Positions 17,571-41,398 of a DNA stretch of 64,000 nucleotides are shown here, one piece after another (positions within the stretch are counted from its first letter, which is position 1; the number at the start of each line of letters is the position of its first letter). The position numbers were made by a program, and so were the translations under genes. Source of the DNA: Arcobacter sp. F2176 (GTDB taxonomy: Bacteria; Campylobacterota; Campylobacteria; Campylobacterales; Arcobacteraceae); NCBI RefSeq assembly GCF_004116465.1, contig NZ_PDJV01000003.1:124001-188000 (forward strand), read 5' to 3'. Below the pieces are notes generated by a model, which did no database searches, was not told the origin of the DNA, and saw nothing but the letters and a program-made list of their open reading frames with translations.

Positions 17571-17705
17571 TATAAGCTTTCGTTTATATAGTTTAAAATC
17601 TTTCGTTCGAAAGAAATTACGGAAGTATAAATACAAATTATTACATTGTGATTACAAAGAAAAGAGTTTTGATTCTTATGTTTAGATTTAATTATTAGAA
17701 TATGG

Positions 17706-17715
17706 TGAATATTCA
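17706..17715. promoter_or_regulatory. TGAATATTCA palindrome in front of tetR
   Basis: Perfect 10-bp palindrome 58 bases before the tetR start. The same core recurs before hydA1 (20876-20885). Related sites with four central bases lie at the other hydrogenase promoters. This fits autoregulation by the TetR protein. Confidence 0.5.
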
Positions 17716-17773
17716 TTTATTATTAACATAGATTTTAATATTATATATCATTATTAAATTAAGGTAAAAAATT

Positions 17774-18370
17774 ATGTCTGTAAAAGAAGAGAAAAAAAAT
17801 AGTATTATTAGAAATTCGTTGATACTATTCGCTAAAAAAGGTTTTTATAATACAACTATTCCAGATATAGCAAAAGCTATGAGTATGAGTGTTGGTAATA
17901 TGTATAATTACTTTTCCTCAAAAGAAGAATTAGCAAAAGTTGCTATAAAATATTCTACAAATATTATGGCAGATGATTTGAGAAAAATCAATAATATGGA
18001 TATTACTTCAAAAGAAAAACTTTATTTATTTATTAAAAACTATTTGAAAAATGTAAAAAATTCTCCTGAAGTAATAAATTACTTTTTAAGAGTTTATTTA
18101 TCAAATAGAGAAGTATTTAAAGAAGGGTGTGAGGGGTTTTTGTGTGTAGGTGAATTTGTAACTGAAGTTATGATTTTACTTGATGATGGTGCACAAAAAA
18201 AAGAGTTTAGAGAACAAGAATTTTTCCCAGCATTTGGTATGCTAATGGGAAGTTTAGGTGGATTTGCATTTATGAGTGGAGAAAATGTATTAGAAAAAGA
18301 TTTACTTGAATATTCTGATTCTATTGCTGAAAATATTTATAGAGCACTAAAATATGATGAAAATGCATAA
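17774..18370 (+). CDS. TetR/AcrR-family transcriptional regulator
   Basis: 198 residues. The N-terminal HTH covers about residues 27-47 (TTIPDIAKAMSMSVGNMYNYF), followed by an all-helical ligand domain without recognisable specificity motifs. Its stop codon lies inside the start region of the hydrogenase small-subunit gene, so the two are translationally coupled. TetR-type palindromes flank this gene and the hydrogenase and hyp promoters, making it the prime candidate for the regulon's DNA-binding protein. Whether it represses or activates, and what it binds, are unknown. The operator resembles the TGAATGA-type boxes of acyl-CoA-responsive TetR proteins, so an acyl-CoA ligand is an alternative to a protein partner. 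Confidence 0.9.
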   Translation: MSVKEEKKNSIIRNSLILFAKKGFYNTTIPDIAKAMSMSVGNMYNYFSSKEELAKVAIKYSTNIMADDLRKINNMDITSKEKLYLFIKNYLKNVKNSPEVINYFLRVYLSNREVFKEGCEGFLCVGEFVTEVMILLDDGAQKKEFREQEFFPAFGMLMGSLGGFAFMSGENVLEKDLLEYSDSIAENIYRALKYDENA

Positions 18371-19289
18371 AACAGCTTTACCAAAAGTTGTTTGGCTTCA
18401 AGGTATTACTTGCAATGGTAATACCCACTCTTTTTTATCTGCAAATTCATCAAGATTTGAACAATTTAATAATAATTTTGATTTGATTTATCATCCTAGT
18501 TTAACTGTTGATACTACTCTTGATGAGATTTTAGAATCAAAAGATAGAATTGATTATTTGTTAGTTGAAGGTGCAATAACAAATGATGAATTCTATTTTT
18601 CAATTTCTAACAAAAATTTATCAGATGTTTTAACTGCACTTGTTTTAAAATCAAATTTTTTAATTGCCGTTGGTTCTTGTGCTTCTTATGGAGGAATCCA
18701 TGCAAAGTTTGAACAAAATGGCAAAACTGGTGGATTAAAAGATTATATTTCCAATGAAAATCAAGCATCACTTTCCCATGAAATTATAAATCTTACTGGT
18801 TGTCCTGTTCATCCAGAATGGATAATTCAAACTCTTTTTACCTTGAAATTTAATGGTTCAATTACCCTTGATAATAAATCAAGACCAATAGAGTTGTATG
18901 GAGGTCTTGCTCACCATGGTTGTACTAGAAATGAGTACTTTGAGTGGAAAGTAGAGGCAAAAAGTTTTGGATTAAAAGAGGGTTGTTTATTTTATAATGA
19001 AGGGTGTCGTGGACCAATGACACACTCAAATTGTAATAAAATTTTGTGGAATGATGTTAGTAGTAAAACAAGGGTTGGTATGCCCTGTATTGGCTGTACA
19101 GAATATGATTTTCCAAGACTTAATATGTTTGAAACTAAAAAACATATAGGTATACCTTTTGAGCCACCACTTGGAATTCCTAAAAGAGCATATTTATCAA
19201 TTTCAGGTGTTGCTAAAACATTTACGATTCCTAGATTGAATCAAAAATTAAACCACTTTTATGAAAGTAAAAATAATGAAAACAGTTGA
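18354..19289 (+). CDS. Cytoplasmic [NiFe]-hydrogenase small subunit, sensor/group 2-like
   Basis: 311 residues with no Tat or Sec signal; three in-frame ATGs (18354, 18357, 18363) all overlap the tetR end. Cluster ligands seen: WLQGITCNGN (Cys20, with Asn23 where a second Cys is usual), VGSCASYGG, TGCPVHPEW, AHHGCTR (His and Cys of the distal cluster), EGCLFYNEGCRGP, SNC and PCIGCTEYDF. No C-terminal membrane helix is present. Absence of export signals places it in the cytoplasm, as for HupU/HoxB H2 sensors or cyanobacterial-type HupS. From memory, CxGN at the proximal cluster is known for group 2 HupS proteins. A sensor role is inferred from the partner's C-terminus. Confidence 0.88.
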   Translation: MMKMHKTALPKVVWLQGITCNGNTHSFLSANSSRFEQFNNNFDLIYHPSLTVDTTLDEILESKDRIDYLLVEGAITNDEFYFSISNKNLSDVLTALVLKSNFLIAVGSCASYGGIHAKFEQNGKTGGLKDYISNENQASLSHEIINLTGCPVHPEWIIQTLFTLKFNGSITLDNKSRPIELYGGLAHHGCTRNEYFEWKVEAKSFGLKEGCLFYNEGCRGPMTHSNCNKILWNDVSSKTRVGMPCIGCTEYDFPRLNMFETKKHIGIPFEPPLGIPKRAYLSISGVAKTFTIPRLNQKLNHFYESKNNENS

Positions 19290-20628
19290 TATAGTAGAAC
19301 GAATTGAGGGTGAAGCAAAGCTTAATTTAACTTGGAAAGATAAAAAAGTAAGTGATGCTTCAATTGACTTTTTAAATTTTAGAGGCTTTGAATATATTTT
19401 AGAGAATAAACCTATTTTAGATGCTTTAGTTTATACCCCAAGAATTTGTGGAATATGTGGACAAGCTCACCTTTTAGCAACTGTTAATGCAATAGAAAAT
19501 TTATATAAAAATTCTGGTAACGAATTACAAATAACAAATAAAGCTAAAATACTTAGGGAATTAGGATTGATTATTGAAATAATTGATTCACATATTAAGT
19601 GGTTTTATATGTTTATAATGCCAGATGTTATAGCAATATCTAAAAAACAATATGAGGGATATACTCCCTTAAAAGGAGAAAAATGGCTAGGAGCACAAAA
19701 AGGTGCTAGTGAAATAATCAAAGCCTTAGCAATTTATGCAGGACAATGGCCACATACATCTTATATGATTCCTGGTGGAGTTATGAGTGATCCAACGCTA
19801 TTAGATATTGTAACTTGCGAAAACTATATTGATCAAACAATAAAGTATTTTGAAAAAGATATAGCAGGAATAAGCATTGAAAATTATTTATCTTTAAATA
19901 GTTTTGAAGAACTAACTTTACTATCTTCATCTTTGAGAGATTTTGTTGATATCTCTTTTGAAACAAAACTAGAGCAAGTGGGAAAGGCACACAATAGACA
20001 TTTAGTTTTATCAGACATGATAGATGTAAAACCTGGACTTTATAATAAAAAGATATCTAATAATATTGATTTAGCAAAGATAAAAGAGAGTGAAGAATAT
20101 ACTTTTAATATAAATAAAAAAGATAATAAAAAAGCTCATACATGGTCTAAAAGTGTTCAATATAATAAACATTTTTATGAAGTAGGGCCCTTATCAAGAG
20201 CTGTTATAAATGAAAGAGAGTTTATAACAACCTTACATAATAAGTATGATGATTCAACATTTACAAGAGTAATGTCAAGGGTTGATGAAATAGCACATCT
20301 TTTAATCTACAGTAAAAAACTTATAAAACAAATAGATATAAGTGAAGACTCATATATTAAGCCTAAAATAGATTTAAAGAGTCTAGAAAATATAACTGCA
20401 ACTTCTAGTGTAGAAGCATGTAGAGGTTCACTTGTTCACACCCTTAGTGTAAATAAAGGGCTTATTACAAAATATGATGTCATTACACCTACTGTTTGGA
20501 ATTTGGGTCCAAAAAATAATATAGAATTAGGCGTTGCCCAAAAAGCAATTATTGGTTCTAAATCACTAAATGAATCAAAAATTATATTAAGATCATTTGA
20601 TGTATGCTCTGTTTGTACAACACATTAA
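19261..20628 (+). CDS. [NiFe]-hydrogenase large subunit without C-terminal extension, sensor-like
   Basis: 455 residues from ATG 19261; ATG 19276 gives 450 and is equally likely. NiFe ligands are RICGICGQAH (Cys63, Cys66) and the terminal DVCSVCTTH (Cys449, Cys452). The protein stops exactly at the His where maturation proteases cut other large subunits, so it needs no processing. This is a hallmark of regulatory HoxC/HupV hydrogenases. DVC replaces the usual DPC. The start overlaps the small-subunit gene. No HupT/HoxJ-type kinase is encoded in the window; the neighbour is TetR. Confidence 0.9.
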   Translation: MKVKIMKTVDIVERIEGEAKLNLTWKDKKVSDASIDFLNFRGFEYILENKPILDALVYTPRICGICGQAHLLATVNAIENLYKNSGNELQITNKAKILRELGLIIEIIDSHIKWFYMFIMPDVIAISKKQYEGYTPLKGEKWLGAQKGASEIIKALAIYAGQWPHTSYMIPGGVMSDPTLLDIVTCENYIDQTIKYFEKDIAGISIENYLSLNSFEELTLLSSSLRDFVDISFETKLEQVGKAHNRHLVLSDMIDVKPGLYNKKISNNIDLAKIKESEEYTFNINKKDNKKAHTWSKSVQYNKHFYEVGPLSRAVINEREFITTLHNKYDDSTFTRVMSRVDEIAHLLIYSKKLIKQIDISEDSYIKPKIDLKSLENITATSSVEACRGSLVHTLSVNKGLITKYDVITPTVWNLGPKNNIELGVAQKAIIGSKSLNESKIILRSFDVCSVCTTH

Positions 20629-20642
20629 TGAATGTTTATTCA
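20629..20642. promoter_or_regulatory. Hydrogenase-type operator after the sensor large subunit
   Basis: TGAAT-GTTT-ATTCA, starting at the base after the stop codon of the sensor large-subunit gene and about 140 bases upstream of the putative hydA1 promoter. Half-sites match those before hydA2 and hypB. Confidence 0.5.
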
Positions 20643-20779: not shown

Positions 20780-20809
20780 TTGATATAAATGCTACTTTAT
20801 TGCTATACT
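20780..20809 (+). promoter_or_regulatory. Putative promoter of the first hyd operon
   Basis: TTGATA (20780-20785) and TATACT (20804-20809) with an 18-base spacer, about 100 bases upstream of hydA1. The remaining leader of roughly 90 bases contains the TGAATATTCA operator. No sigma-54 type GG/GC pair was seen. Confidence 0.45.
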
Positions 20810-20875
20810 AGCCCATTATTTAGATACTAAATTAAGTTTTAATTAAGTAAGCAAAAGTTAAATTACGATAATAAA

Positions 20876-20885
20876 TGAATATTCA
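20876..20885. promoter_or_regulatory. TGAATATTCA operator before hydA1
   Basis: Core of a 16-bp perfect palindrome (AAATGAATATTCATTT, 20873-20888), lying between the putative promoter and the ribosome site AAGGAG of hydA1. It has the same core as the site upstream of tetR. A protein bound here would act as a roadblock to transcription. Confidence 0.55.
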
Positions 20886-20907
20886 TTTTTTAATTTAAGG
20901 AGAACAA

Positions 20908-22155
20908 ATGGCTTACGATTCTCAAGAGATGGTTAAAAAAGTTTTTAATCAAAACTCTGCAAGGGTGGATACGAACAAAGGTGAAGAGTTTTACAATAAT
21001 CTGTTTGAAAAAACAAAAGCTAGATTAAGTAAACTAAGAAAACAACCAGCTCTTAAAGATATCGATATTATTGATATAGTTGAGAGTGAAGGCGTAAATA
21101 GAAGAGATTTTATGAAGTGGGCAAGTGCAACAACTGCAACACTTATGTTACCTCCTATGTTTACTCCTTTAGTTGCAGAAGCTGCTGAACTTATGAATAG
21201 ACTTCCTGTGATTTGGATTGAGTTGCAAGATTGTGCTGGAAACTCTGAAGCACTATTGAGATCATCAACACCTACTGTTGATGATTTAATTTTTGATGTA
21301 TTATCTTTAGAATTTCATGAAACCATTATGGCTGCAGCTGGTCATCAAGCAGATGCTCAACTTGAAGATGCGGTTGAACATTTCAAAGGTAAATATTTAT
21401 TATTTGTAGAGGGTGCAATTCCTACAGCTATGAATGGTCAATATGGAACTATTGGAGCTTCAGGTGAGACTTTCCAAGAACACTTGATGAGACTATCAAA
21501 AGATGCAGCAGCTGTGGTTGCTGTTGGTTCATGTGCTACTTTTGGTGGTATTCCAGCTGCTGCTCCAAATCCAACAGGTGCAGTTGGTGTTATGGATTTA
21601 GTTAAAGGTAAACCTGTAATTAATATTCCTGCCTGTCCCGCAAACCCTGCAAATATGGTTGGGGTTGTACTTCATTATGTGTTAACAGGCCAAGTTCCAG
21701 AACTTGATTCATTACTTAGACCAAAATTTGCATTTGGATATAGGATTCATGATAATTGTGAAAGAAGAGCACATTTTGATGCAGGTGAATATGTAGAAGA
21801 GTGGGGTGATGAAGGTGCTAAAAATAACTGGTGTCTATACAAAATGGGATGTAAAGGTCCAATGACATTTAATAATTGTTCAATTATAAGATACAATGAT
21901 GGAGCAAACTGGCCAATTGGTGTTGGAAGAGGGTGTATTGGATGTTCTGAACCTGATTTCTGGGATAAGTATGCATATGAAAGACCTATGGCCGATGCAC
22001 ATATAAAAGCTCCAACAGGTGGAGTTGAAAAAACTGTTGATGAATTTGGATTAGGCTTGTTAACAGCAACTACAATAGGTATAGGAGTTCATGCAATTGC
22101 TTCAGCAGTTGTTGGTAAAAGATCAGTAAATAATGGCGAAAGTGAGGAGGCATAA
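20908..22155 (+). CDS. hydA: Membrane-bound [NiFe]-hydrogenase 1 small subunit
   Basis: 415 residues. A Tat signal RRDFMKWAS sits at residues 65-73, after an unusually long N-region, with cleavage expected near AEAAE (about 90-93). Ligands: LQDCAGNSEALL has Cys109 but Asn112 where CTGC is usual; VGSCATFGG, PACPANP, IHDNCERR, NWCLYKMGCKGP, NNC and GCIGCSEPDFW are all present. The C-terminal helix GLGLLTATTIGIGVHAIA anchors it in the membrane facing the periplasm. It transfers electrons from H2 to the cytochrome b encoded downstream. The missing proximal-cluster Cys distinguishes it from the second copy. Confidence 0.94.
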   Translation: MAYDSQEMVKKVFNQNSARVDTNKGEEFYNNLFEKTKARLSKLRKQPALKDIDIIDIVESEGVNRRDFMKWASATTATLMLPPMFTPLVAEAAELMNRLPVIWIELQDCAGNSEALLRSSTPTVDDLIFDVLSLEFHETIMAAAGHQADAQLEDAVEHFKGKYLLFVEGAIPTAMNGQYGTIGASGETFQEHLMRLSKDAAAVVAVGSCATFGGIPAAAPNPTGAVGVMDLVKGKPVINIPACPANPANMVGVVLHYVLTGQVPELDSLLRPKFAFGYRIHDNCERRAHFDAGEYVEEWGDEGAKNNWCLYKMGCKGPMTFNNCSIIRYNDGANWPIGVGRGCIGCSEPDFWDKYAYERPMADAHIKAPTGGVEKTVDEFGLGLLTATTIGIGVHAIASAVVGKRSVNNGESEEA

Positions 22156-23891
22156 TGAGCAAGCATATCGTAATAGATCCTATTACAAGAATTGAAGGAC
22201 ACTTAAGAATTGAAGCAGTAATTGATGAAAACAATGTAGTTACTGATGCATATAGTTCTTCAACAATGTTTAGGGGAATAGAAGAGATTCTAAAGGGAAG
22301 AGATCCAAGAGACTGTGGACTTTTGGCAATGAGAATTTGTGGTGTTTGTACTGGTACTCATTACCAAAGAAGTATTGAAGCAGTTGAGCATGCATTTAAA
22401 GTAACTATTCCTAAAAATGCAAGATTAGTACGAAATATGATGCAAGGTGCTTTATACATCCATGACCATGTTGTACATTTTTATCATCTTCATGCACTTG
22501 ATTGGGTTGATATTACAAAAGCACTTGAAGCTGATCCCAAAAAAGCAGTTGAAGAAGCACAAAAATGGGCGAAACTTTCAGGTCAAAGACCTTGGAATGC
22601 AAGTGAAGATGTATTTGCTGAAGTTCAAGAAAGAGTTACAAAATATGTAAAACAAGGAAGACTTGGTGTATTTGGTAATGCTTATTGGGGAAGCAAAGCT
22701 TATAAACTAACTCCTGAGCAAAACCTAATAGGTCTTTCTCATTATTTAGATGCATTAGAGTTACAAAGAGAGATTGCAAAAGCACAAGCTATTTTTGGAG
22801 GTAAAAATCCTCATCCACAATCAATTGTTGTAGGTGGTGTTACTTGTGTTCAAGATATTAAAAATCCAGCTAGAATAGCAGAATTTAAAGATATTATTCA
22901 AAAAGCACAAAAATTTTCTAAACAAGCATATCTTCCTGATGTTTATATGGCAGGAACTATGTATGCTGATGAAGCCCTTGATGGAACAGGTGGTGGTTTA
23001 GGTAACTATATGTCTTATGGTGATTTCAATTTAGATGATACATCTTTTTATGAAGCTGCTAAACTTTTCCCTTCTGGAATAGTTATGAATAAAGATTTAT
23101 CAAAAGTTTATGACTTAGACCAAACAAAAATATCAGAAGATGTGACTCACTCTTGGTATGAAGGTAAAACAAATTTACACCCATATGAAGGTGAAACAAA
23201 ACCAAACTATACAGGTTTTAAAGAGAAAAAAGATGGTATTGCATATTTAGATATTAAAAATAAATATTCTTGGATTAAATCACCTTTATACAATGACAAT
23301 AGAATGGAAGTTGGTCCACTAGCTAGAATGATAGTAGGGGTGGCAAAAGGTGATGAAAGAATTAGTAAATATGTTACAACATTCTTAAAAAATGGAAACT
23401 TACCAACAAAAGTTTTATTTTCAACTGTAGGAAGAACAGCTGCAAGAGCAATTGAGACAGAAATGATGTGTGATGTTGTAATTGAATGGGCAGATGAATT
23501 AGCTAAAAATGCAGCAGGTGGTGATTTATCTACTTGGACTGAATTTGATTTTGATAAAGTATCTAAAGATGCTCAAGGTTTTGGTATGGCTGAAGCTCCA
23601 AGAGGTGCTTTAGGACATTGGATTAAAATTAAAGATGGAAAAGTTTTAAATTATCAAGCAGTTGTTCCTTCAACATGGAATGCAGCACCAAAAGATTATA
23701 AAAACAGAATGGGTGCTTATGAAGCTTCTTTAGTAGGTACTAAAGTTGTAGACCCTGATATGCCACTAGAGATTTTACGAACTATTCATAGTTTTGATCC
23801 TTGTATTGCATGTGCTGTGCATATTATTGATACTAATGGAAAAGAATTAGGTGTATATAAAATAGATCCAACAGGTGTTTGCCGTGCGTAA
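22155..23891 (+). CDS. hydB: Membrane-bound [NiFe]-hydrogenase 1 large subunit
   Basis: 578 residues, overlapping hydA by one base. NiFe ligands are RICGVCTGTH (Cys62, Cys65) and DPCIACAVH (Cys550, Cys553), with HLRIE near the N-terminus. A 22-residue peptide after His556 should be removed by the HydD protease once nickel is inserted. It is exported with HydA by the small subunit's Tat signal. About 60 percent of positions look shared with the second copy by eye. Confidence 0.95.
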   Translation: MSKHIVIDPITRIEGHLRIEAVIDENNVVTDAYSSSTMFRGIEEILKGRDPRDCGLLAMRICGVCTGTHYQRSIEAVEHAFKVTIPKNARLVRNMMQGALYIHDHVVHFYHLHALDWVDITKALEADPKKAVEEAQKWAKLSGQRPWNASEDVFAEVQERVTKYVKQGRLGVFGNAYWGSKAYKLTPEQNLIGLSHYLDALELQREIAKAQAIFGGKNPHPQSIVVGGVTCVQDIKNPARIAEFKDIIQKAQKFSKQAYLPDVYMAGTMYADEALDGTGGGLGNYMSYGDFNLDDTSFYEAAKLFPSGIVMNKDLSKVYDLDQTKISEDVTHSWYEGKTNLHPYEGETKPNYTGFKEKKDGIAYLDIKNKYSWIKSPLYNDNRMEVGPLARMIVGVAKGDERISKYVTTFLKNGNLPTKVLFSTVGRTAARAIETEMMCDVVIEWADELAKNAAGGDLSTWTEFDFDKVSKDAQGFGMAEAPRGALGHWIKIKDGKVLNYQAVVPSTWNAAPKDYKNRMGAYEASLVGTKVVDPDMPLEILRTIHSFDPCIACAVHIIDTNGKELGVYKIDPTGVCRA

Positions 23892-24603
23892 TTTTAAAAG
23901 GGTTGAAAGAATGACTCCAGTCATGCGAATAATACATTGGACAAATGCTATTTGTATGATTGTTGCAGTTGCAACCGGGCTTTATATAGGTCATCCATAT
24001 TATCAAACATTTATTGCAGATCCAGCTGTTGATAAGTATGTTATGGCATGGAATAGATGGGGACACTTTATTGTGGCAATTATATTTGATGTAACAGCTA
24101 TTTTAATTGGTTATTTATATCTTTTCTCTAGATTTGAAAAACCATATAGAAAGATTTTACCGACAAAGAAAAACTTTATAGAATTCTGTGAAGTTTTTTT
24201 CAATCTAATAACTTTTAATAGAAGAAAAAAGTTTGATTCAACATATAGTGATAGTTATAATATTATGTTTTTTACACTTTTTCATATATTATTAGTATTT
24301 ATGCTTTTAACTGGACTTCAAATGTATGTTCATGGTTTAGCTTCAGGACAAAGTTCAATTGGAGCATGGTGGCCATGGCTTTTACATTTTTCTACTGACT
24401 GGACACTTTGGGTATTTGGTGGAAATATGGGTGTTAGAATTGCACATCATACAGCTATGTATCTTTTATTGATGTGGGTTTTTTCACATATTTATTATCA
24501 AATTTGGAGAACGATTTTTTGGAGAGAAGGAGACATCAATATTGTATTTGGTGGAACAAAATTTATAAATGATGAAGTTAACTCTAAAAATCTAGATAAA
24601 TAG
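23884..24603 (+). CDS. hydC: Ni/Fe-hydrogenase b-type cytochrome subunit 1
   Basis: About 240 residues, four membrane segments, cytochrome b561/HydC family. RIIHW near the start, RWGHF, and RIAHH..MYLL..HIYY provide His candidates for two b hemes. It accepts electrons from HydA and reduces the quinone pool. Start choice is uncertain: GTG 23875, GTG 23884 (overlapping hydB) or ATG 23911, which has the best ribosome site (AAAAGGG) but a shorter N-terminus than HydC of the second operon. Confidence 0.88.
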   Translation: MRNFKRVERMTPVMRIIHWTNAICMIVAVATGLYIGHPYYQTFIADPAVDKYVMAWNRWGHFIVAIIFDVTAILIGYLYLFSRFEKPYRKILPTKKNFIEFCEVFFNLITFNRRKKFDSTYSDSYNIMFFTLFHILLVFMLLTGLQMYVHGLASGQSSIGAWWPWLLHFSTDWTLWVFGGNMGVRIAHHTAMYLLLMWVFSHIYYQIWRTIFWREGDINIVFGGTKFINDEVNSKNLDK

Positions 24604-24704: not shown

Positions 24705-25280
24705 ATGAGAAATATAGTAATAGGAGTTGGAAATCTACTTTTTAAAGATGAGGGAGTAGGTATTTTAGCTGCTAAATATTTAGATGAAAATTATAAATTT
24801 GAAGGTGATATAGAGATTATTGATGGGGGAACTTTAGGTTTTAAATTGATGACTTATTTTCAAGAGTATGATAATGTTATTATTTTAGATACTGTCTCTA
24901 TTGAAGATAAAGTAGGGGATATTTATAGACTTCCTTCTGATGTTTTGTTGGGGCTTGGTCAGTATAGAAAAACAGCCCATGAAGTTGAAATTGTAGAGAT
25001 GTTAGAGATATGTTCTGTATTAGATAAACATGCAGAAGTAACAATAATTGGTATTATTCCTGAAGATATTGTTAGTGTTCAAATTGGACTTACAAAAACT
25101 ATTGAAGATAAGTTTATAGGATTAATAAATCAGGCTCTTACTGATATTGAAAACTTAGGAATAAAAGTAGAAAAGAATGAAGAACAAAAATCTATTTCTC
25201 AAATTTGTAAAGGAATCTTGGGATCATATAACGATGAATATGATGAACGAATACCAAATGAAGAGGATACTACAAGATGA
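24705..25280 (+). CDS. hydD: Hydrogenase maturation protease 1
   Basis: 191 residues of the HyaD/HybD endopeptidase family. GVGNLLFKDEGVG (Glu nickel ligand), DGGTLGFKL, ILDTV and TAHEVEIVEML (His) are the expected metal-sensing and binding positions. It should cut the C-terminal peptide of HydB1 after the last NiFe-ligand motif. It is separated from hydC1 by 101 bases holding a hairpin, and overlaps hydE1 by four bases. Confidence 0.92.
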   Translation: MRNIVIGVGNLLFKDEGVGILAAKYLDENYKFEGDIEIIDGGTLGFKLMTYFQEYDNVIILDTVSIEDKVGDIYRLPSDVLLGLGQYRKTAHEVEIVEMLEICSVLDKHAEVTIIGIIPEDIVSVQIGLTKTIEDKFIGLINQALTDIENLGIKVEKNEEQKSISQICKGILGSYNDEYDERIPNEEDTTR

Positions 25281-26821
25281 AACTATTTTACAAAATAGAA
25301 TTTAACAGTACAAACTTATATTATAAACATATTTTAGAAAATCTAATAGAAGAGTATGACATCAATGCAAATGTGAAACAATACATCGGTTTTATTTTAA
25401 TAACATGCAATGATAGTGAAGAAAAAATTGAAGGCTTTTTCAAATATTTAGGTGAAACCTTACCTTTATCAGTATTTTTAAAAAATTCATATGTTGTTAA
25501 TGATTTTGATGAATCCATAGAAGAGATTGAAGATAAAAATATACTTCAAAATGTCCTTACTTTTACTAATAAAGATATTAAAAATATAATAAACGAAAAT
25601 ACAAATATTGATTTTTCAAATGATATTAAAAGAATAAAAGAGGGAAAGATTTCTAAAATAGAGACACATAATGGACTTAAAAATATATTTTTGCCTTCAA
25701 AAGCTTTAAGAGAAGAGTTTGAATCTAAAAATTGTGAAGTAAAACTTTTCATTTGTAACATAAATAAATTATCAGAATTATTTTCTTTGAATCAAAAGGA
25801 CTTACAACTTCTTTGTTCTATTGAAAGACCTTTAGTAAAATTAAAATTCAATATTTTAGAAAATAAAGAAAAAGAGTATTCAAAAAGTAATTTTATATAT
25901 GCAAAACTTCCAGATGATAAAGAGACTATACTTTTTGCAAATGCTTTGCAAAAAGAAGGTATTGACTATTTACTTTATGTAAAAGAAGAGAGTTTACAAG
26001 ACGGACTTAAAGTTACTTATTTTAATAGTGACAATATAATTATAAATGGAGAAAAATCTCTGTTTCCAAAATATGATTATAATTTAAACAAAAAGTATAA
26101 TAATTCAAAGGAATTTTTTGGTGATAATGGAGGAGTTATAAAAGCTACACTTGCAACAAATAATAAGAGAATAAAACCAAGTGTATCTATATATTTTTCA
26201 TATAACAGTGATAATAGTTCTATTTCCTTGAATATTCCAGGAAAAGGACTAAGAGATATTATTTTAATTCCAAATATTATTTATGATATTAATAATGCGA
26301 TGGAAGAAATATCTCTAATTGATGAAAATACAGCAAGATTGATAATAAATTATAAAAATAAGTTCTCACAAAACTTTAATAAAGAATTTAAAAATAAAGA
26401 TATAAATGGATTTGAATCAATCTTAAATATTGCCTCTTATGTACTTGGATTAGAAGATTATTTAGACTTTGAAAATGCTGCTTTTAATTGTAATGTTAAA
26501 AGTGGATTACAAATTGATATGAAACTAATAAAGATTGATAATATAAATTATTTGGACTATAGACGGATCATTCAAAGTATAATGAGTTATAAAATGGCAG
26601 ATGTATCAAATGAAATATTGGCTTATTCTTTTTATGAGAGTTTAAGTGAATTTATTACTAATCAAGTTGATACACTTAAAAAAGAGTTGAATTTCAATGA
26701 TGTTATTTTATGTGGAAATATGTTTTCCAATTCTCTTCTTTTAGAAAAAACTTATAAGATTTTCACTAAAACATTTAATACAATTATTCCAAAAGAATAT
26801 CCATTAGACATGGAGTTTTAA
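25277..26821 (+). CDS. HydE-like hydrogenase accessory protein 1, degenerate HypF homologue
   Basis: 514 residues, overlapping hydD1. It aligns by eye over its whole length with the 552-residue protein at 31279 and, more distantly, with HypF: a degenerate acylphosphatase-like N-terminus, a YrdC-like block (FICNINKLSELF..LLCSIERPLVKLKFN), and a Kae1-like C-terminus (ILNIASYVLGLEDYLDF..SGLQIDM, then VILCGNMFSNSLLLE). The zinc ribbon Cys of the second copy and HypF are absent, as are acylphosphatase Arg and Asn and the HHxxH metal site. Position matches hydE of Helicobacter, a gene required for hydrogenase activity. A scaffolding or delivery role is inference. Confidence 0.72.
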   Translation: MKLFYKIEFNSTNLYYKHILENLIEEYDINANVKQYIGFILITCNDSEEKIEGFFKYLGETLPLSVFLKNSYVVNDFDESIEEIEDKNILQNVLTFTNKDIKNIINENTNIDFSNDIKRIKEGKISKIETHNGLKNIFLPSKALREEFESKNCEVKLFICNINKLSELFSLNQKDLQLLCSIERPLVKLKFNILENKEKEYSKSNFIYAKLPDDKETILFANALQKEGIDYLLYVKEESLQDGLKVTYFNSDNIIINGEKSLFPKYDYNLNKKYNNSKEFFGDNGGVIKATLATNNKRIKPSVSIYFSYNSDNSSISLNIPGKGLRDIILIPNIIYDINNAMEEISLIDENTARLIINYKNKFSQNFNKEFKNKDINGFESILNIASYVLGLEDYLDFENAAFNCNVKSGLQIDMKLIKIDNINYLDYRRIIQSIMSYKMADVSNEILAYSFYESLSEFITNQVDTLKKELNFNDVILCGNMFSNSLLLEKTYKIFTKTFNTIIPKEYPLDMEF

Positions 26822-26937
26822 AATATTATTTTTTTAAAAGTACCAATAAGTAACATATGATCATAATTATTTTACAAAATTAACTTTTATTATAAAGTTA
26901 AGATTAAGTTAAGAATCTTATTTGTAATATTCATTAA

Positions 26938-26951
26938 TGAACAAGCGTTCA
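26938..26951. promoter_or_regulatory. Operator 1 upstream of hydA2, with adjacent TATAAT
   Basis: TGAAC-AAGC-GTTCA, extended to AATGAACAAGCGTTCATT (26936-26953). A perfect TATAAT begins at 26953, so the operator occupies the -35 position of a promoter that would start near 26965 and reach a terminator at about 27009. Confidence 0.55.
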
Positions 26952-26976
26952 TTATAATAATAAAAGATTTAAAGTT

Positions 26977-27009: not shown

Positions 27010-27022
27010 AGTATCTTAATAA

Positions 27023-27036
27023 TGAATAGTTATTCA
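27023..27036. promoter_or_regulatory. Operator 2 upstream of hydA2
   Basis: TGAAT-AGTT-ATTCA, 14 bases after the first hairpin, followed two bases later by a weak -10-like TTTTAT. Confidence 0.55.
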
Positions 27037-27052
27037 CTTTTATTTATTTATG

Positions 27053-27079: not shown

Positions 27080-27092
27080 ATACAAAAAATAA

Positions 27093-27106
27093 TGAATGAT
27101 TATTCA
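27093..27106. promoter_or_regulatory. Operator 3 upstream of hydA2
   Basis: TGAAT-GATT-ATTCA inside 9-bp perfect arms (ATAATGAAT / ATTCATTAT, 27089-27110). A -10-like TATTAA begins at 27108 and the ribosome site AAAGG lies at 27126-27130. This is the most extended copy of the motif. Confidence 0.6.
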
Positions 27107-27137
27107 TTATTAAAATTTATTTATAAAAGGATTAATT

Positions 27138-28301
27138 TTGGATATGTCAAAATTATTTAACAAATTATCAAAAAGATTAGAGAACTTAGAAAAACTTCCT
27201 AAATTAGATGATAATAAATCAATCCCTGATGTTTTAATAGAAAAAGGGATTAATCGTAGAGATTTTATGAAATGGGCAAGTGCAATGACTGCAATGCTAG
27301 CTCTTCCTGGGTCATTTTCACCATTAGTTGCAAAAGCAGCAGAATTAAGTGATAGATTACCAATTATATGGCTTCATATGGCTGAGTGTACAGGATGCTC
27401 TGAATCACTTTTAAGAACAGATGCTCCAACAATCGATTCATTGATTTTTGATTATATATCTTTAGAATATCACGAAACACTTATGGCAGCAGCTGGTTGG
27501 CAAGCTGAAGGAAACTTAGAGAATGCAATAGAAAAACACAAAGGTAAATATATCTTGATGGTAGAAGGTGGAATTCCTCATGGTGAAAGTGCTCATTTTC
27601 TAACTATTGGTGGACATGGTAAAACAGGAGAAGAAAATGCAAAAGCTGCCTGTGAAGATGCAGCTGCAATTTTTGCTATTGGTACATGTTCATCTTTTGG
27701 TGGAGTGCAAGCTGCTATTCCTAATCCAACTGGTGCAGTAGGACTTTCAAAAATTACAAATAAACCAGTAATTAATGTACCGGGTTGTCCTCCTAGTGAG
27801 AAAAATATTGTAGGTACTCTGATGCATTATATTTTATATGGAAGCTTACCTGCCCTTGATGCTTATAATAGACCAAAATGGGCTTATGGAATGCGTATTC
27901 ATGACTTATGTGAGAGAAGAGGTCATTTTGATGCTGGTGAGTTTGTAGAAGAGTTTGGAGATGAAGGTGCTAAAAAAGGTTATTGTTTGTATAAAGTAGG
28001 ATGTAAAGGTCCTTATACTTTCAATAACTGTTCTAAAAATAAGTTTAATTCACATATGTCTTGGCCAATACAAGCAGGTCATGGATGTATTGGTTGTAGT
28101 GAACCAGATTTTTGGGATACTATGGGGCCATTTGAAGAACCAGTTGCAGATAAACTTTATAACACAGTTTTTGGTGGAGGTGGTGCTGATGCAACTGCTG
28201 ATAAGATAGGTATTGGATTATTAAGTGTTACAGCAGTTGGTATCGCAGCGCATGCAGTTATAGCAAATTTTAAAAATCCAAAAAGTGATGATGAGGAATA
28301 A
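27138..28301 (+). CDS. hydA: Membrane-bound [NiFe]-hydrogenase 2 small subunit
   Basis: 387 residues from TTG 27138, whose spacing to AAAGG is right; ATG 27144 is an alternative. Tat signal NRRDFMKWAS at residues 39-48. All cluster ligands are canonical: ECTGCSESLLR (Cys84, Cys87), IGTCSSFGG, PGCPPSEKN, IHDLCERR, GYCLYKVGCKGP, NNC, GCIGCSEPDFW. A C-terminal helix (GIGLLSVTAVGIAAHAVI) anchors it. It is the standard group 1 uptake type, close to Wolinella HydA. No extra Cys of the oxygen-tolerant CTCC type are present. Confidence 0.95.
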   Translation: MDMSKLFNKLSKRLENLEKLPKLDDNKSIPDVLIEKGINRRDFMKWASAMTAMLALPGSFSPLVAKAAELSDRLPIIWLHMAECTGCSESLLRTDAPTIDSLIFDYISLEYHETLMAAAGWQAEGNLENAIEKHKGKYILMVEGGIPHGESAHFLTIGGHGKTGEENAKAACEDAAAIFAIGTCSSFGGVQAAIPNPTGAVGLSKITNKPVINVPGCPPSEKNIVGTLMHYILYGSLPALDAYNRPKWAYGMRIHDLCERRGHFDAGEFVEEFGDEGAKKGYCLYKVGCKGPYTFNNCSKNKFNSHMSWPIQAGHGCIGCSEPDFWDTMGPFEEPVADKLYNTVFGGGGADATADKIGIGLLSVTAVGIAAHAVIANFKNPKSDDEE

Positions 28302-28303
28302 CA

Positions 28304-30034
28304 ATGGCAAATAAAAGAATAATAGTAGATCCAATTACTAGAATTGAAGGACACTTAAGAATAGAAGTTGAAATTGATGAAAATAATGTTATAAAAAATG
28401 CTTTTGCTTCATCTACTCTATGGAGAGGTTTAGAAACAATAGTTAAAAATAGAGATCCAAGAGATGCCGGATTTTTGATGCAAAGAATCTGTGGAGTATG
28501 TACTTTTTCACATTATAGAGCTGGTATTGAAGCAGTAGAAGATGCCCTTAATATTACTCCTCCTTTAAATGCAAAACTAACTAGAAGTTTGATGAATCAA
28601 GCATTATTTATGCATGATCATTTAGTACATTTTTATCATTTACATGGTTTAGATTGGGTTGATATTACATCTGCATTAAAAGCGGATCCTGCAAAAGCTA
28701 GTAAAGAGGCTTTTAAATATACAAAGTATCCAATTGCAACTGGTGAAAATGATTTAGTAAAAGTAAAAGATAGAGTAAAAGAATTTGCTGCAAGAGGTGA
28801 ACTTGGACCATTTGCCAATGCATATTGGGGACATGAAACTTTTAGATTAACTCCTGAACAAAACCTAATAGCTTTAAGTCACTATTTAAAAGCTTTAGAA
28901 GTTCAAAGAACTGCTGCTCAACTTATGGCAATGTTTGGAGGAAAGCAACCACATCCTCAAAGTTTAACAGTAGGTGGGGTTACTTGTGTAATGGATTTAT
29001 TAGATCCTTCAAGAATGGCCGAATATTTAACAAAATACAAAGAAGTTTCAAATTTCATTGAACATGCTTATTGTGCTGATATTTTAATGGCAGGACAAGC
29101 TTATGCAAAAGAGCCAAGTGTTACTGCAAAAGCTGGAACTATGAATTTTATGTCTCATAAAGAGATGCAACTAAATAGAACTGAATTTCTTTTTGACACA
29201 GGAATTATTTTAAATGGTGATTTATCAAAAGTTCATCCTATAAATGAAGATTTGATAACAGAAGAAGCAACACACTCTTGGTATAAAGATGATGAGCCTT
29301 TACATCCTTATGATGGAAAAACAAATCCAAATTATACAGGTATGAGTGAAGCCATGACAATAGGAGCCCAAGGAAAAGAAGTTCACTCTAAAGTTATTGA
29401 TGAAAAGGGTAAATATTCTTGGATAAAATCACCTAGATATGATGGAAAAGCTATGGAAGTTGGACCTTTAGCTTCTGTTTTAGTTTCATATGCAAGTGGA
29501 AATAAAAAAATAGTTAAAATTGTAGATGAATTCTTAGAACAAACAGGACTTCCTACAGAAGCTTTATTTACTACTTTGGGAAGAACAGCTGCAAGAGCTT
29601 TACAAGTAAAAGCTATTATTGAAAATGGTTTAGAAACATTTGATACCTTGATTGAAAATTTAAAAGTAGACCAAGAAACATATACTACTTATAAAATCGA
29701 TAAAGATAAAGAGTACAAAGGTAGATTTATCGGTGATGTTCCAAGAGGAATGTTAAGCCATTGGATAAGAATCAAAAATGGAGTAGTTGAAAACTATCAA
29801 GCTGTTGTTCCTTCAACTTGGAATGCAGGTCCTGAAGATTCAACGGGATTAAAAGGTCCATATGAGTCAAATCTTATTGGATTAAAAGTAAAAGACATAA
29901 CACAACCTTTAGAGATTATTCGTGTTATTCATAGTTTTGATCCTTGTATTGCTTGTGCTGTTCATGTTATGGATACAAAAGGCAATGAATTGGGAAGTTA
30001 TAAAGTTGATCCAACTTATGGCACTTCGTGTTAA
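28304..30034 (+). CDS. hydB: Membrane-bound [NiFe]-hydrogenase 2 large subunit
   Basis: 576 residues, 2 bases after hydA2. NiFe ligands RICGVCTFSH (Cys63, Cys66) and DPCIACAVH (Cys548, Cys551), followed by a 22-residue C-terminal peptide to be cleaved by HydD. Works with HydA2 and HydC2 as a periplasm-facing H2:quinone oxidoreductase. Confidence 0.96.
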   Translation: MANKRIIVDPITRIEGHLRIEVEIDENNVIKNAFASSTLWRGLETIVKNRDPRDAGFLMQRICGVCTFSHYRAGIEAVEDALNITPPLNAKLTRSLMNQALFMHDHLVHFYHLHGLDWVDITSALKADPAKASKEAFKYTKYPIATGENDLVKVKDRVKEFAARGELGPFANAYWGHETFRLTPEQNLIALSHYLKALEVQRTAAQLMAMFGGKQPHPQSLTVGGVTCVMDLLDPSRMAEYLTKYKEVSNFIEHAYCADILMAGQAYAKEPSVTAKAGTMNFMSHKEMQLNRTEFLFDTGIILNGDLSKVHPINEDLITEEATHSWYKDDEPLHPYDGKTNPNYTGMSEAMTIGAQGKEVHSKVIDEKGKYSWIKSPRYDGKAMEVGPLASVLVSYASGNKKIVKIVDEFLEQTGLPTEALFTTLGRTAARALQVKAIIENGLETFDTLIENLKVDQETYTTYKIDKDKEYKGRFIGDVPRGMLSHWIRIKNGVVENYQAVVPSTWNAGPEDSTGLKGPYESNLIGLKVKDITQPLEIIRVIHSFDPCIACAVHVMDTKGNELGSYKVDPTYGTSC

Positions 30035-30045
30035 AAGGCTAAAAG

Positions 30046-30735
30046 ATGATTGAAAGAAAATATGAGTTTTCCGGTGTTTTAAGATTAAATCACTGGATTA
30101 GAGTAGTTACTTTATTAATATTAGTTGTGACAGGTTTTTACCTTGCAAAACCTTTTTTAACACCATATATTACTGATGAACCAGTAAATTTCATGAATGC
30201 ATTGTGGAGATTCTGGCACTTGGTTTTTGGATTTGTATTAATTGCAACAACAATATTTAAAGTATATTTATTTATTTTTGATAGACAAAGTAGAAATGAA
30301 AGAGTTTCCTTTTTTGATTTTATTAGTCCAAGAGTATGGATTAAACAAATTAAATATTATATGTTAATTGGTACTCATCCAGAAGGAAAAGGTATATATA
30401 ATCCTTTGCAGTTTATTGCATATTTTATGATATTTATGACTCTGTTTTTAGTATCTCTAACAGGATTAATATTATATATACATGTTTATCATGATGGATT
30501 AGCTGGATTACTTTTTCCACTACTTCGACCAATAGAAGTACTTATGGGTGGATTGGCTAATGTAAGAGAATTGCATCACCTTACAATGTGGATATTTTTG
30601 ATATTTATTCCTATTCATATTTATATGGCAGTGTTTAATTCTGTGTATGGGAAAAGTGGTTCTATGGATACTATTTTTAGTGGATATAGTTGGCATAAAA
30701 AACATGAAAAAAAAGAGAGTAAAGCAAAAAAATGA
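30046..30735 (+). CDS. hydC: Ni/Fe-hydrogenase b-type cytochrome subunit 2
   Basis: 229 residues, four membrane segments, HydC/HyaC family. RLNHW at the start, FWHLVFGF, and ELHHLTMWIFLIFIPIHIY carry the likely heme His. It links hydrogenase 2 to menaquinone. It overlaps the maturation protease gene by four bases (ATGA). Confidence 0.93.
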   Translation: MIERKYEFSGVLRLNHWIRVVTLLILVVTGFYLAKPFLTPYITDEPVNFMNALWRFWHLVFGFVLIATTIFKVYLFIFDRQSRNERVSFFDFISPRVWIKQIKYYMLIGTHPEGKGIYNPLQFIAYFMIFMTLFLVSLTGLILYIHVYHDGLAGLLFPLLRPIEVLMGGLANVRELHHLTMWIFLIFIPIHIYMAVFNSVYGKSGSMDTIFSGYSWHKKHEKKESKAKK

Positions 30736-31295
30736 ATATTTTAATATTAGGAATAGGAAATATTCTTTTTCAAGATGAAGGAATAGGTGCACATTTTGTG
30801 CACTATTTAGATGAAAAATATACTTTTAAATCTAAAAAATCAAAGGTTACAATCATAGATGGTGGAACTTTGGCTCAAAGATTGATCCCCGAAATTATAA
30901 AATATGATGAAGTAATTATAATTGATTGTATCGATGCAAATAATGCAAGTGCAGGGGATGTTTATTTTTTTGATTATAATGCTATTCCCAATTGTGTTAA
31001 TTGGCAAGGAAGTGCCCATGAAGTTGAGATGCTTCAAACACTTAAAATGATAGATATGAATCAAGACTTACCTTTTACTAAAATACTTGGAGTTATTCCA
31101 AAAAGAGTCGCAGATGATACTACTTTTGAATTAAGTGAAGAGATTCAATCTTCAATTATAACTATGGAAAATAGTGTTAGAAATCATTTAAAACTATTTG
31201 ATGTAGAAATGTGTGTCAAAAAAGCTGATACATATATTACAAATATTGCAGAGATAAGTTATAAAAGGGACATCCTAAATGGTCCTTATTTATAA
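30732..31295 (+). CDS. hydD: Hydrogenase maturation protease 2
   Basis: 187 residues. ILGIGNILFQDEGIGAHF, DGGTLAQRL, IIDCIDA and SAHEVEMLQTL match HyaD-type endopeptidases. Presumably specific for HydB2, as each hyd operon carries its own copy. Its last 17 bases overlap the next gene. Confidence 0.92.
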   Translation: MNILILGIGNILFQDEGIGAHFVHYLDEKYTFKSKKSKVTIIDGGTLAQRLIPEIIKYDEVIIIDCIDANNASAGDVYFFDYNAIPNCVNWQGSAHEVEMLQTLKMIDMNQDLPFTKILGVIPKRVADDTTFELSEEIQSSIITMENSVRNHLKLFDVEMCVKKADTYITNIAEISYKRDILNGPYL

Positions 31296-32937
31296 GTTTG
31301 AATACTTTTCAAATAATTTTACACTTATACATAATATAAAAGCATGCCTAAAAAATTTTGAAATTAATTATAAAATTTCAAAAGCTAATAATCACATAAA
31401 TTTATTTGTTGAAAGTACAAAAGAGATACTAGACGAATTTTCTAAGATTTTATCAACATTTCTTCCAATGTCTATTTTTCTAAAAAATGTCGAAGTTGAA
31501 AGTGTTGATGAATTTCCTACTTTTCCAGATATTAATCATTTGGACTGTTCTGTTTTAACTTTTTGTACTAAATGCTTAAAAGCAGTTGAAGAAAAAGGTA
31601 ATAAAAACTATTATAATCCTTTTATTTTTTGCGAAGATTGTGGGCAAGATTTAGAGGCAAAAGCTTTAATTTTATTTGATGGAAAAAAAGAGATAAAAAA
31701 ATCAAATTATATTGAGTATTTTGAATATACCTCTAAACTTATAAATGATGGGAAAAGAGTTAAAATAAAAACTTTAAGTGGTGAGTTCGTTTTTTCAAAA
31801 CTAGAAGCTATAGATAAAAATAAAAAAGATAAGATAAAGTTATTATGTACAAATTTAAATAATATCTCAGATGTTCTTATTGCATCTAAGCAAGAGATAA
31901 TAGCCCTAGCATCTATTGAAAAGCCAAGAATAAATTTAAAAATAAATGAAGTCTTTAAATCTAAAAAAATTTTGATAAATGAAAATATTGATGTTAGATA
32001 TGCAAGTGACATGATTTTGTATTTATTATGTTTGGAGTTAGAGAAATATAATATTAACTTTTTGGCATATTGGAAGAGTGATACTTTTGATTCATCTTTA
32101 ACTTTTATTAGTAGTACTTTATATAAAAAGATTGAGATTCCTAAAATCTCTATTTTAGATAATGGACAAGTAATAGTTTTAAAATCAAAAAATTATGATA
32201 AAAGTTTAGATGATGTATATAAAGAGTTTGATGAAAAAAATAAGTCACAATTTATGGTTTTGTTAAGTGAAAATTATTTATTTGATAAAACTATTTTAAA
32301 TACCTATGCAAGTACAAAACATGAAGATGGCTTGACACTTTATTCTACAAAAATAGATGGGATGATAGATATATTTAAATATGAATTACCAATTAGTATG
32401 AGTGAATTATTTGATGAAATAAAAAAAGATACTAATGGTGCAAAACTTATTTTAAATTATGAAAAGTCTTTTCCCGATATTTATAAAACGGCACTTAGTT
32501 TTGATTTGTCTTCTATAAATGAAAACTCTGTTTATAGTATATGGAAAATTGTATCAGTAATTTTAGGTTTTGAAGTGGATTTATTAACTGGTGCACATAA
32601 TGCTTTGGGTGATAAAGGTCCTAGAATAGATTATAAATTAGATGAAAGTGATAAAATATATAAAAGAAGATTTAATATTTATAAATTAATACAAAGTGGT
32701 ATAAGTTATAAACTAGCTGGAACAAATGATAATCTAATATGTTTAGGATATATTGAGAGTTTTGCTCATTTTGTATCTTCTTGTGTTGATATGGTAAATG
32801 ATGAAATGAAACTTGATGGAATAAGTCTTTGTGGAGACTTGTTTGCTAATAAACTTATTTCTTCTTTTGTACATAAAAGCATTACAAAAAATTATAAAAT
32901 ATATTATAATAAGGACTTTCCTATACAAATTGATTAA
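31279..32937 (+). CDS. HydE-like hydrogenase accessory protein 2, HypF-derived with one zinc ribbon
   Basis: 552 residues, AAAAGGG ribosome site inside hydD2. Collinear with HypF: residues 1-85 look like a degenerate acylphosphatase; FCTKCLKAV..FIFCEDCGQDL (about 95-123) keeps the first HypF zinc ribbon but not the second; LLCTNLNNISDV..LASIEKPRINLKIN matches the YrdC-domain block; IVSVILGFEVDLLTGAHN..GPRIDYKLDE and ISLCGDLFANKLI match the Kae1-like C-terminus. The catalytic GFRPF, the TSAN motif and HHYAHA are missing. It therefore looks like a non-catalytic HypF relative kept for hydrogenase assembly. The gene corresponds in position to hydE. Confidence 0.75.
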   Translation: MVLIYKFEYFSNNFTLIHNIKACLKNFEINYKISKANNHINLFVESTKEILDEFSKILSTFLPMSIFLKNVEVESVDEFPTFPDINHLDCSVLTFCTKCLKAVEEKGNKNYYNPFIFCEDCGQDLEAKALILFDGKKEIKKSNYIEYFEYTSKLINDGKRVKIKTLSGEFVFSKLEAIDKNKKDKIKLLCTNLNNISDVLIASKQEIIALASIEKPRINLKINEVFKSKKILINENIDVRYASDMILYLLCLELEKYNINFLAYWKSDTFDSSLTFISSTLYKKIEIPKISILDNGQVIVLKSKNYDKSLDDVYKEFDEKNKSQFMVLLSENYLFDKTILNTYASTKHEDGLTLYSTKIDGMIDIFKYELPISMSELFDEIKKDTNGAKLILNYEKSFPDIYKTALSFDLSSINENSVYSIWKIVSVILGFEVDLLTGAHNALGDKGPRIDYKLDESDKIYKRRFNIYKLIQSGISYKLAGTNDNLICLGYIESFAHFVSSCVDMVNDEMKLDGISLCGDLFANKLISSFVHKSITKNYKIYYNKDFPIQID

Positions 32938-41277: not shown

Positions 41278-41360
41278 TAAATGCTTTTTTAGTTCTAAAA
41301 GTACATAAGAAAATAAAATTTTAGTTTGGTTTTATATTACTTGCATTACACTACAGTAAA

Positions 41361-41374
41361 TGAACAAGTATTCA
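41361..41374. promoter_or_regulatory. Hydrogenase-type operator before hypB
   Basis: TGAAC-AAGT-ATTCA, 24 bases before the hypB ATG. Its left half is identical to operator 1 of hydA2 (TGAACAAG). A TATATT at 41333-41338 upstream and TAAACT at 41375-41380 downstream are both possible -10 elements. Confidence 0.55.
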
Positions 41375-41398
41375 TAAACTAAACTAAAAGGCAAAAAC

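Follow-up and report, generated by a model that had tools for sequence, protein, structure and literature searches.

The locus described here raises the question of whether a cytoplasmic hydrogenase may report the presence of H2 to the uptake hydrogenase genes by way of a TetR-family regulator. The regulatory hydrogenases HupUV/HoxBC signal via the histidine kinase HupT/HoxJ and the response regulator HupR/HoxA. In the window (the whole 64-kb stretch of DNA that was analyzed) of an Arcobacteraceae genome (G000; 3.27 Mb in 98 contigs), by contrast, the partner of the hydrogenase is a TetR protein; the gene cluster contains no kinase, and a search of the source genome turned up none of the HupT/HoxJ type. 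Of hydrogenase gene regulation in the Campylobacterota almost nothing is known, according to one paper (PMC5357620). The initial annotation had proposed that a sensor hydrogenase acts with or through TetR, a wiring that it did not know to be described, and the literature searched likewise yielded no description of a TetR-hydrogenase H2 sensor, operator included. A TetR gene beside hupSL is already known in one species; what appears undescribed is the wiring to hyd.

The tetR-huaS-huaL trio and the class of its hydrogenase

Three genes on the plus strand make up the module: a TetR-family regulator of 198 amino acids (17774..18370; Pfam TetR_N, 1.2e-12), a cytoplasmic [NiFe] hydrogenase small subunit of the HuaS type without a Tat signal (18354..19289; assigned by Pfam/NCBIfam and alignments), and a HuaL-type cytoplasmic large subunit without a maturation tail (19276..20628, in an ORF that opens at 19261). 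Pfam assigns the three products to the TetR HTH and to the small and large hydrogenase subunits, respectively. Also on the plus strand are hydA1B1C1 (20908..24603), a membrane-bound uptake hydrogenase and the presumed target operon, and hydA2B2C2 (27138..30735), a second uptake hydrogenase and presumed target; the hydD1 protease is encoded at 24705-25280. The hyd operons further encode proteins of 514 and 552 amino acids (window 25277-26821 and 31279-32937) that have only faint HypF-like matches and evolve fast compared with their neighbors. The gene overlaps noted in the initial annotation (18354-18370 and 19261-19289) are present as described, with a refinement to the second: since relatives of HuaL begin with MKTVDI in the alignment, HuaL probably starts at 19276 rather than 19261, and the HuaS/HuaL overlap would then be 14 nt, not 29. 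The claim that TetR is "fused by translation" to the hydrogenase does not stand, as the genes overlap but the proteins are separate. Among related loci, tetR and the small-subunit gene overlap or lie no more than 10 nt apart in 57 of 61.

Both hydA copies carry a Tat signal and HuaS carries none, in keeping with the initial annotation, which had also placed the end of the large subunit exactly at CTTH. HuaL indeed ends in FDVCSVCTTH, and the same end point, without a tail, is found in all 141 homologues read (some genomes being counted in two collections). The NiFe ligands C63, C66, C449, and C452 of HuaL are invariant in the alignment, and the FeS-cluster ligands of HuaS are retained except at the proximal CxGC, which reads CxGN. 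With its NiFe ligands and almost all of its FeS ligands in place, HuaSL appears capable of cleaving H2 and transferring electrons.

Like HupUV/HoxBC (group 2b), HuaSL consists of a cytoplasmic small and large subunit without a Tat signal, its large subunit has no C-terminal extension, and its genes cluster with the hydrogenase genes presumed to be under its control. However, the tree places HuaL in a separate clade with full support and HoxC and HupV in another, identity to HupUV/HoxBC is 26-29%, and the proximal motif of HuaS is CxGN, not CxGC. The L1 motif also differs, reading CGICSVSQ in HoxC/HupV and CGICGQAH or CGICGHAH in HuaL, with His in place of Gln. Regulatory hydrogenases of group 2b have a Gln where a His is otherwise conserved close to the active site (PMC5665086), and we read the L1 position as the one meant there. 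Because of the separate clade and the His in L1, HuaL is, by sequence, not a HupV/HoxC. The likeness to HupUV/HoxBC drawn in the initial annotation thus holds for build and proposed function but not for descent, given the clade and the missing Gln. The HuaL clade lies nearer to enzymes of Thermus, Sulfobacillus, and Runella, which have a protease; it extends to Aquifex-type genes and groups with cytoplasmic pairs of Campylobacterota and Aquificota. On a Runella plasmid (L255; NC_015693), a different [NiFe] hydrogenase, one that comes with a protease, is preceded by two TetR genes, which may be a parallel case.

The label of HydDB group 2d (HuaSL/HupSL of Campylobacterota and Aquificota) is taken from a study of A. 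butzleri (PMC12286921), in which the genome carrying huaSL also has two hynAB sets, as here. Group 2d hydrogenases have been described as catalytic or unclear in role, and TetR and operator wiring to hyd is absent from those descriptions. By phylogeny, the group 2 hydrogenases of Nautilia have been called H2-sensing (PMC2628731; PMC10092268), and that of Sulfurimonas has been considered possibly sensing (PMC7952632).

Co-occurrence of regulator, hydrogenase, and palindrome

The generality of the trio, a point that the initial annotation had left to be checked, is evident from 397 Campylobacterota genomes: HuaL was found in 112 and TetR in 115, and among the 111 holding both, the genes are contiguous in 110, with TetR on the same strand and upstream by roughly the length of the small subunit (a median gap of 883 nt). 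Several exceptions can be described individually. In G379 the locus ends at a contig edge, in G365 the trio is present below threshold, and G298 holds a broken TetR remnant; G048 and G103 have TetR and the small subunit with the remainder missing or cut; in G418 and G239 huaSL is deleted or replaced and TetR, the palindrome, and hydAB are kept; and G112 carries the trio without a HydB match. In 136 Aquificota genomes, TetR and HuaL were each found in 57 and both in 53, linked in 20 and unlinked in 33. When named genomes were scanned, Hydrogenothermaceae and Persephonella also proved to hold the trio. In Aquificaceae, huaSL stands apart from tetR, often by hypE, with TetR elsewhere in the genome, and at most of the loci read the unlinked Aquificota TetRs adjoin hypB, hydAB, hypD, or hypA. 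Since 33 of the 53 Aquificota co-occurrences are unlinked, the association argues for a shared pathway and not merely an inherited operon. Fisher values for co-occurrence (1e-92 and 6e-28) ignore kinship and so overstate independence. The trio is real, not a chance arrangement. A group 1b HydB is encoded in nearly all genomes with the putative sensor, but the putative sensor is missing from most genomes with HydB; relatives with hydAB but no HuaSL also have no close orthologue of the trio TetR. Plasmids of Sulfurimonas paralvinellae and Sulfurovum mangrovi carry the module together with uptake hydrogenase genes. In Sulfurospirillum multivorans, a TetR-like gene lies upstream of hupSL in the same gene order as here (PMC5357620), and Sulfurospirillum relatives carry the trio.

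The palindromes to which the initial annotation had referred are present, and more were found ahead of hydA2 and hypB. The candidate operator GGTGAATATTCATT (17704..17717) precedes tetR and lies immediately before a -35-like element, and AATGAATGTTTATT (20627..20640), with one mismatch, overlaps the end of huaL. The hydA1 operator-like palindrome AATGAATATTCATT (20874..20887), conserved across species, is situated between the promoter and the ribosome-binding site. Upstream of hydA2 are the candidates ATGAACAAGCGTTCAT (26937..26952) and ATGAATAGTTATTCAC (27022..27037) and the perfect operator-like palindrome ATGAATGATTATTCAT (27092..27107), and a further candidate, ATGAACAAGTATTCAT (41360..41375), lies upstream of hypB. 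Within the window alone the palindrome count shows no excess over shuffles, and its significance is therefore taken from comparison across species. In Arcobacteraceae, 56 of 61 loci have ATGAA-N2-TTCAT in the 60 nt before hydA1 (the 61 include one that is not a true hydA1 locus); none of 179 control promoters, taken from other genes of these loci, has it, and shuffles give about one; at hydA2, 18 of 25 promoters carry the palindrome within 60 nt. In other families and the Aquificota, where it takes the form of ATGAAT and ATTCAT with N0 or N4 between, it was found at hydA in 33 of 36 promoters, compared with 3 of 335 random windows, and it is also present in relatives of S. multivorans. In genomes without the putative sensor the hydA palindrome is lost together with TetR and HuaSL, only 1 of 13 promoters retaining it and 12 lacking it. 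A genome-wide pattern search of four genomes gave counts similar to those of a reversed control pattern, the short core not being specific by itself.

When 52 hydA promoters are aligned, the palindrome is mostly found downstream of a -10-like TTTTACAAT and ahead of the ribosome-binding site, which is a typical repressor position. Persephonella-type promoters were read by eye because a scan of one such locus (L168) gave nothing at threshold; they show TTGACA with one palindrome directly after it and a second just before the ribosome-binding site. The site at tetR is weaker and degenerate in some genera, while that at hydA is near-perfect. Two other elements were seen in the same promoters. Of 60 related loci, 32 have a direct repeat, GCTATnTTAnTGCTA (at 20791-20805 in the window), some 105-140 nt upstream of hydA1; genomes without the putative sensor do not have it, and it may serve another regulator. 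Upstream of the palindrome there is also a tandem TTAAG element, which some of the genomes without the putative sensor retain as well.

A model of H2 signalling through TetR, and its alternatives

The AlphaFold2 model of TetR has a TetR fold (pLDDT 88) whose closest solved folds are FadR-type TetRs, with a TetR_N HTH and a predicted helical ligand domain. The fold and the DNA-binding domain are common to FadR/BetI-type repressors; however, the trio TetR scores far below the cut-offs of those families and bears an invariant C-x4-C loop. The pair C119-x4-C124 (C-x-G-x2-C), found in 127 of 127 TetR homologues, lies in a loop (residues 111-125) between two helices of the ligand domain, which is unusually conserved; the loop is less certain in the model. 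Two of three close TetR paralogues are missing the pair. These features suggest to us a redox or metal site in the trio TetR. In some genomes close TetR paralogues lie near the module (L266:12867-14085, L268:3514-4122). In Aliarcobacter-type loci (L073, L074, L031, L044, L082, and L095), no ATG opens the conserved TetR N-terminus, which is read in frame from ATT or ATA; this suggests a rare start codon, by which TetR would be kept low.

Taken as a whole, the data allow a model to be drawn of how H2 may be sensed. The model proposes that in the absence of H2 the hydA promoters would be held shut by TetR, predicted to bind the palindromic operator before hydA1 and hydA2 and to repress both, and probably acting also on hypB and on its own gene. 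HuaSL would serve as a cytoplasmic H2 detector; once reduced by H2 it would relay its state to TetR, either through electrons passing from the distal FeS cluster to the C-x4-C pair or by direct contact, whereupon TetR would leave the operator and the uptake hydrogenases would be made. The sequences establish the conserved trio, the palindrome and its co-loss, the lack of a HupT/HoxJ-like kinase in this genome, the intact NiFe ligands, and the invariant Cys pair; TetR binding to the palindrome, repression, H2 as the signal, and the signal route to TetR are what we infer. We consider it probable that an H2-responsive TetR-HuaSL circuit governs hyd. What stands of the tie that the initial annotation drew between sensor and TetR is a cytoplasmic, unprocessed hydrogenase tied to TetR, without HupT/HoxJ and with a hyd palindrome co-lost with TetR; the fusion and the HupUV/HoxBC kinship are given up. 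A bolder version, which we hold tentatively and would sooner doubt than assert, makes TetR itself the redox switch: H2-reduced HuaSL would hand its electrons straight to C119-x4-C124, where a thiol pair or metal cluster would accept them, and DNA would be released, a kinase-free H2 sensor that would be a general hydrogenase control in Campylobacterota and Aquificota, with much of group 2d being sensors and not the catalysts they were presumed to be.

Some observations count against the circuit. The two genomes that have lost huaSL (G418 and G239) keep TetR, palindrome, and hyd, G112 has the trio but no HydB match, and HuaSL, with its catalytic ligands, could be an ordinary enzyme. An unlikely alternative is that HuaSL works as a cytoplasmic uptake hydrogenase with ferredoxin as the acceptor it reduces, supplying for instance the reductive TCA (rTCA) cycle, while TetR would regulate hyd and hua via another ligand and the hydrogenase would stay outside signalling. 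All NiFe and nearly all FeS ligands are retained in HuaSL, published proposals give such a role to the Aquifex relative and to S. multivorans HupSL (PMC2628731; PMC5357620), huaSL stands apart from tetR in Aquificaceae, and FadR-type TetRs, the nearest folds, bind small ligands. However, this alternative does not account for the co-occurrence of TetR and HuaSL, linked or not, and no conserved electron-partner or acceptor gene was seen beside huaSL among the genes compared. Expression in A. butzleri bears on it as well. In strain hDNRA1, both hynAB sets are 2- to 6-fold higher with H2 and huaSL is lower, in cultures that also differed in electron donor (PMC12286921). The rise of both uptake hydrogenases fits the TetR-HuaSL model; the simultaneous fall of huaSL, left unexplained if HuaSL is an uptake enzyme, speaks against a major uptake role, although plain derepression of all sites would not predict it and it thus counts against the circuit too. 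In addition, huaSL is kept in this A. butzleri strain, which is without key rTCA genes (PMC12286921), and because these are missing HuaSL is unlikely to feed CO2 fixation there.

S. multivorans invites a second alternative. Its TetR has been proposed to repress hupSL (Kruse et al., 2017; PMC5357620), and the organism has been read as having no H2 sensor, which differs from the reading given here. Its hydB is near-constitutive and hardly responsive to H2, a point against the circuit, and its hupL transcript is almost absent (PMC5357620); since the organism produces H2 itself during fermentation (PMC5357620), its expression is weak evidence either way. That TetR is a local repressor of its own hua operon, with the hydA palindromes belonging to another regulator, would agree with that proposal and with the candidate site at the tetR promoter, but we deem it very improbable, as the hydA palindrome is lost along with TetR and HuaSL, the tetR site is the weaker and often degenerate one, and G418 and G239 keep TetR and the hydA palindrome after loss of huaSL.

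Scarcely credible is H2 control through an unrecognized two-component system with the trio as an accessory, for which the many histidine kinases of G000 and the conserved repeat upstream of hydA1 might speak: of the 45 partial matches there to Cupriavidus necator HoxJ nearly all cover the ATPase domain only, the longest and best (HoxJ 29-422, 25%) is a large receptor kinase apparently with solute-binding domains, no clear full-length relative was found, and a HoxA search of G000 returned a sole HoxA-like sigma54 activator that is NifA-like. Near a NifA-like activator lies a further [NiFe] hydrogenase (L070:7956-12034, contig C5 of G000), whose small subunit is fused behind a FAD/NAD(P)H oxidoreductase-like part (806 amino acids) and has no evident Tat signal.

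Implications for hydrogen metabolism

The TetR-HuaSL circuit offers a specific and widespread candidate for hyd regulation in the Campylobacterota, comprising a regulator, a sensor, and an operator, and the module could yield a compact H2 biosensor. The role of the cytoplasmic group 2 hydrogenase of Campylobacterota has been left open in several papers, and a sensor role is a candidate answer. If the circuit is true, it would be unsafe for genome surveys to score group 2d genes as a capacity to consume H2, and H2 sensing would have arisen with a second output, in which a TetR protein replaces the kinase.
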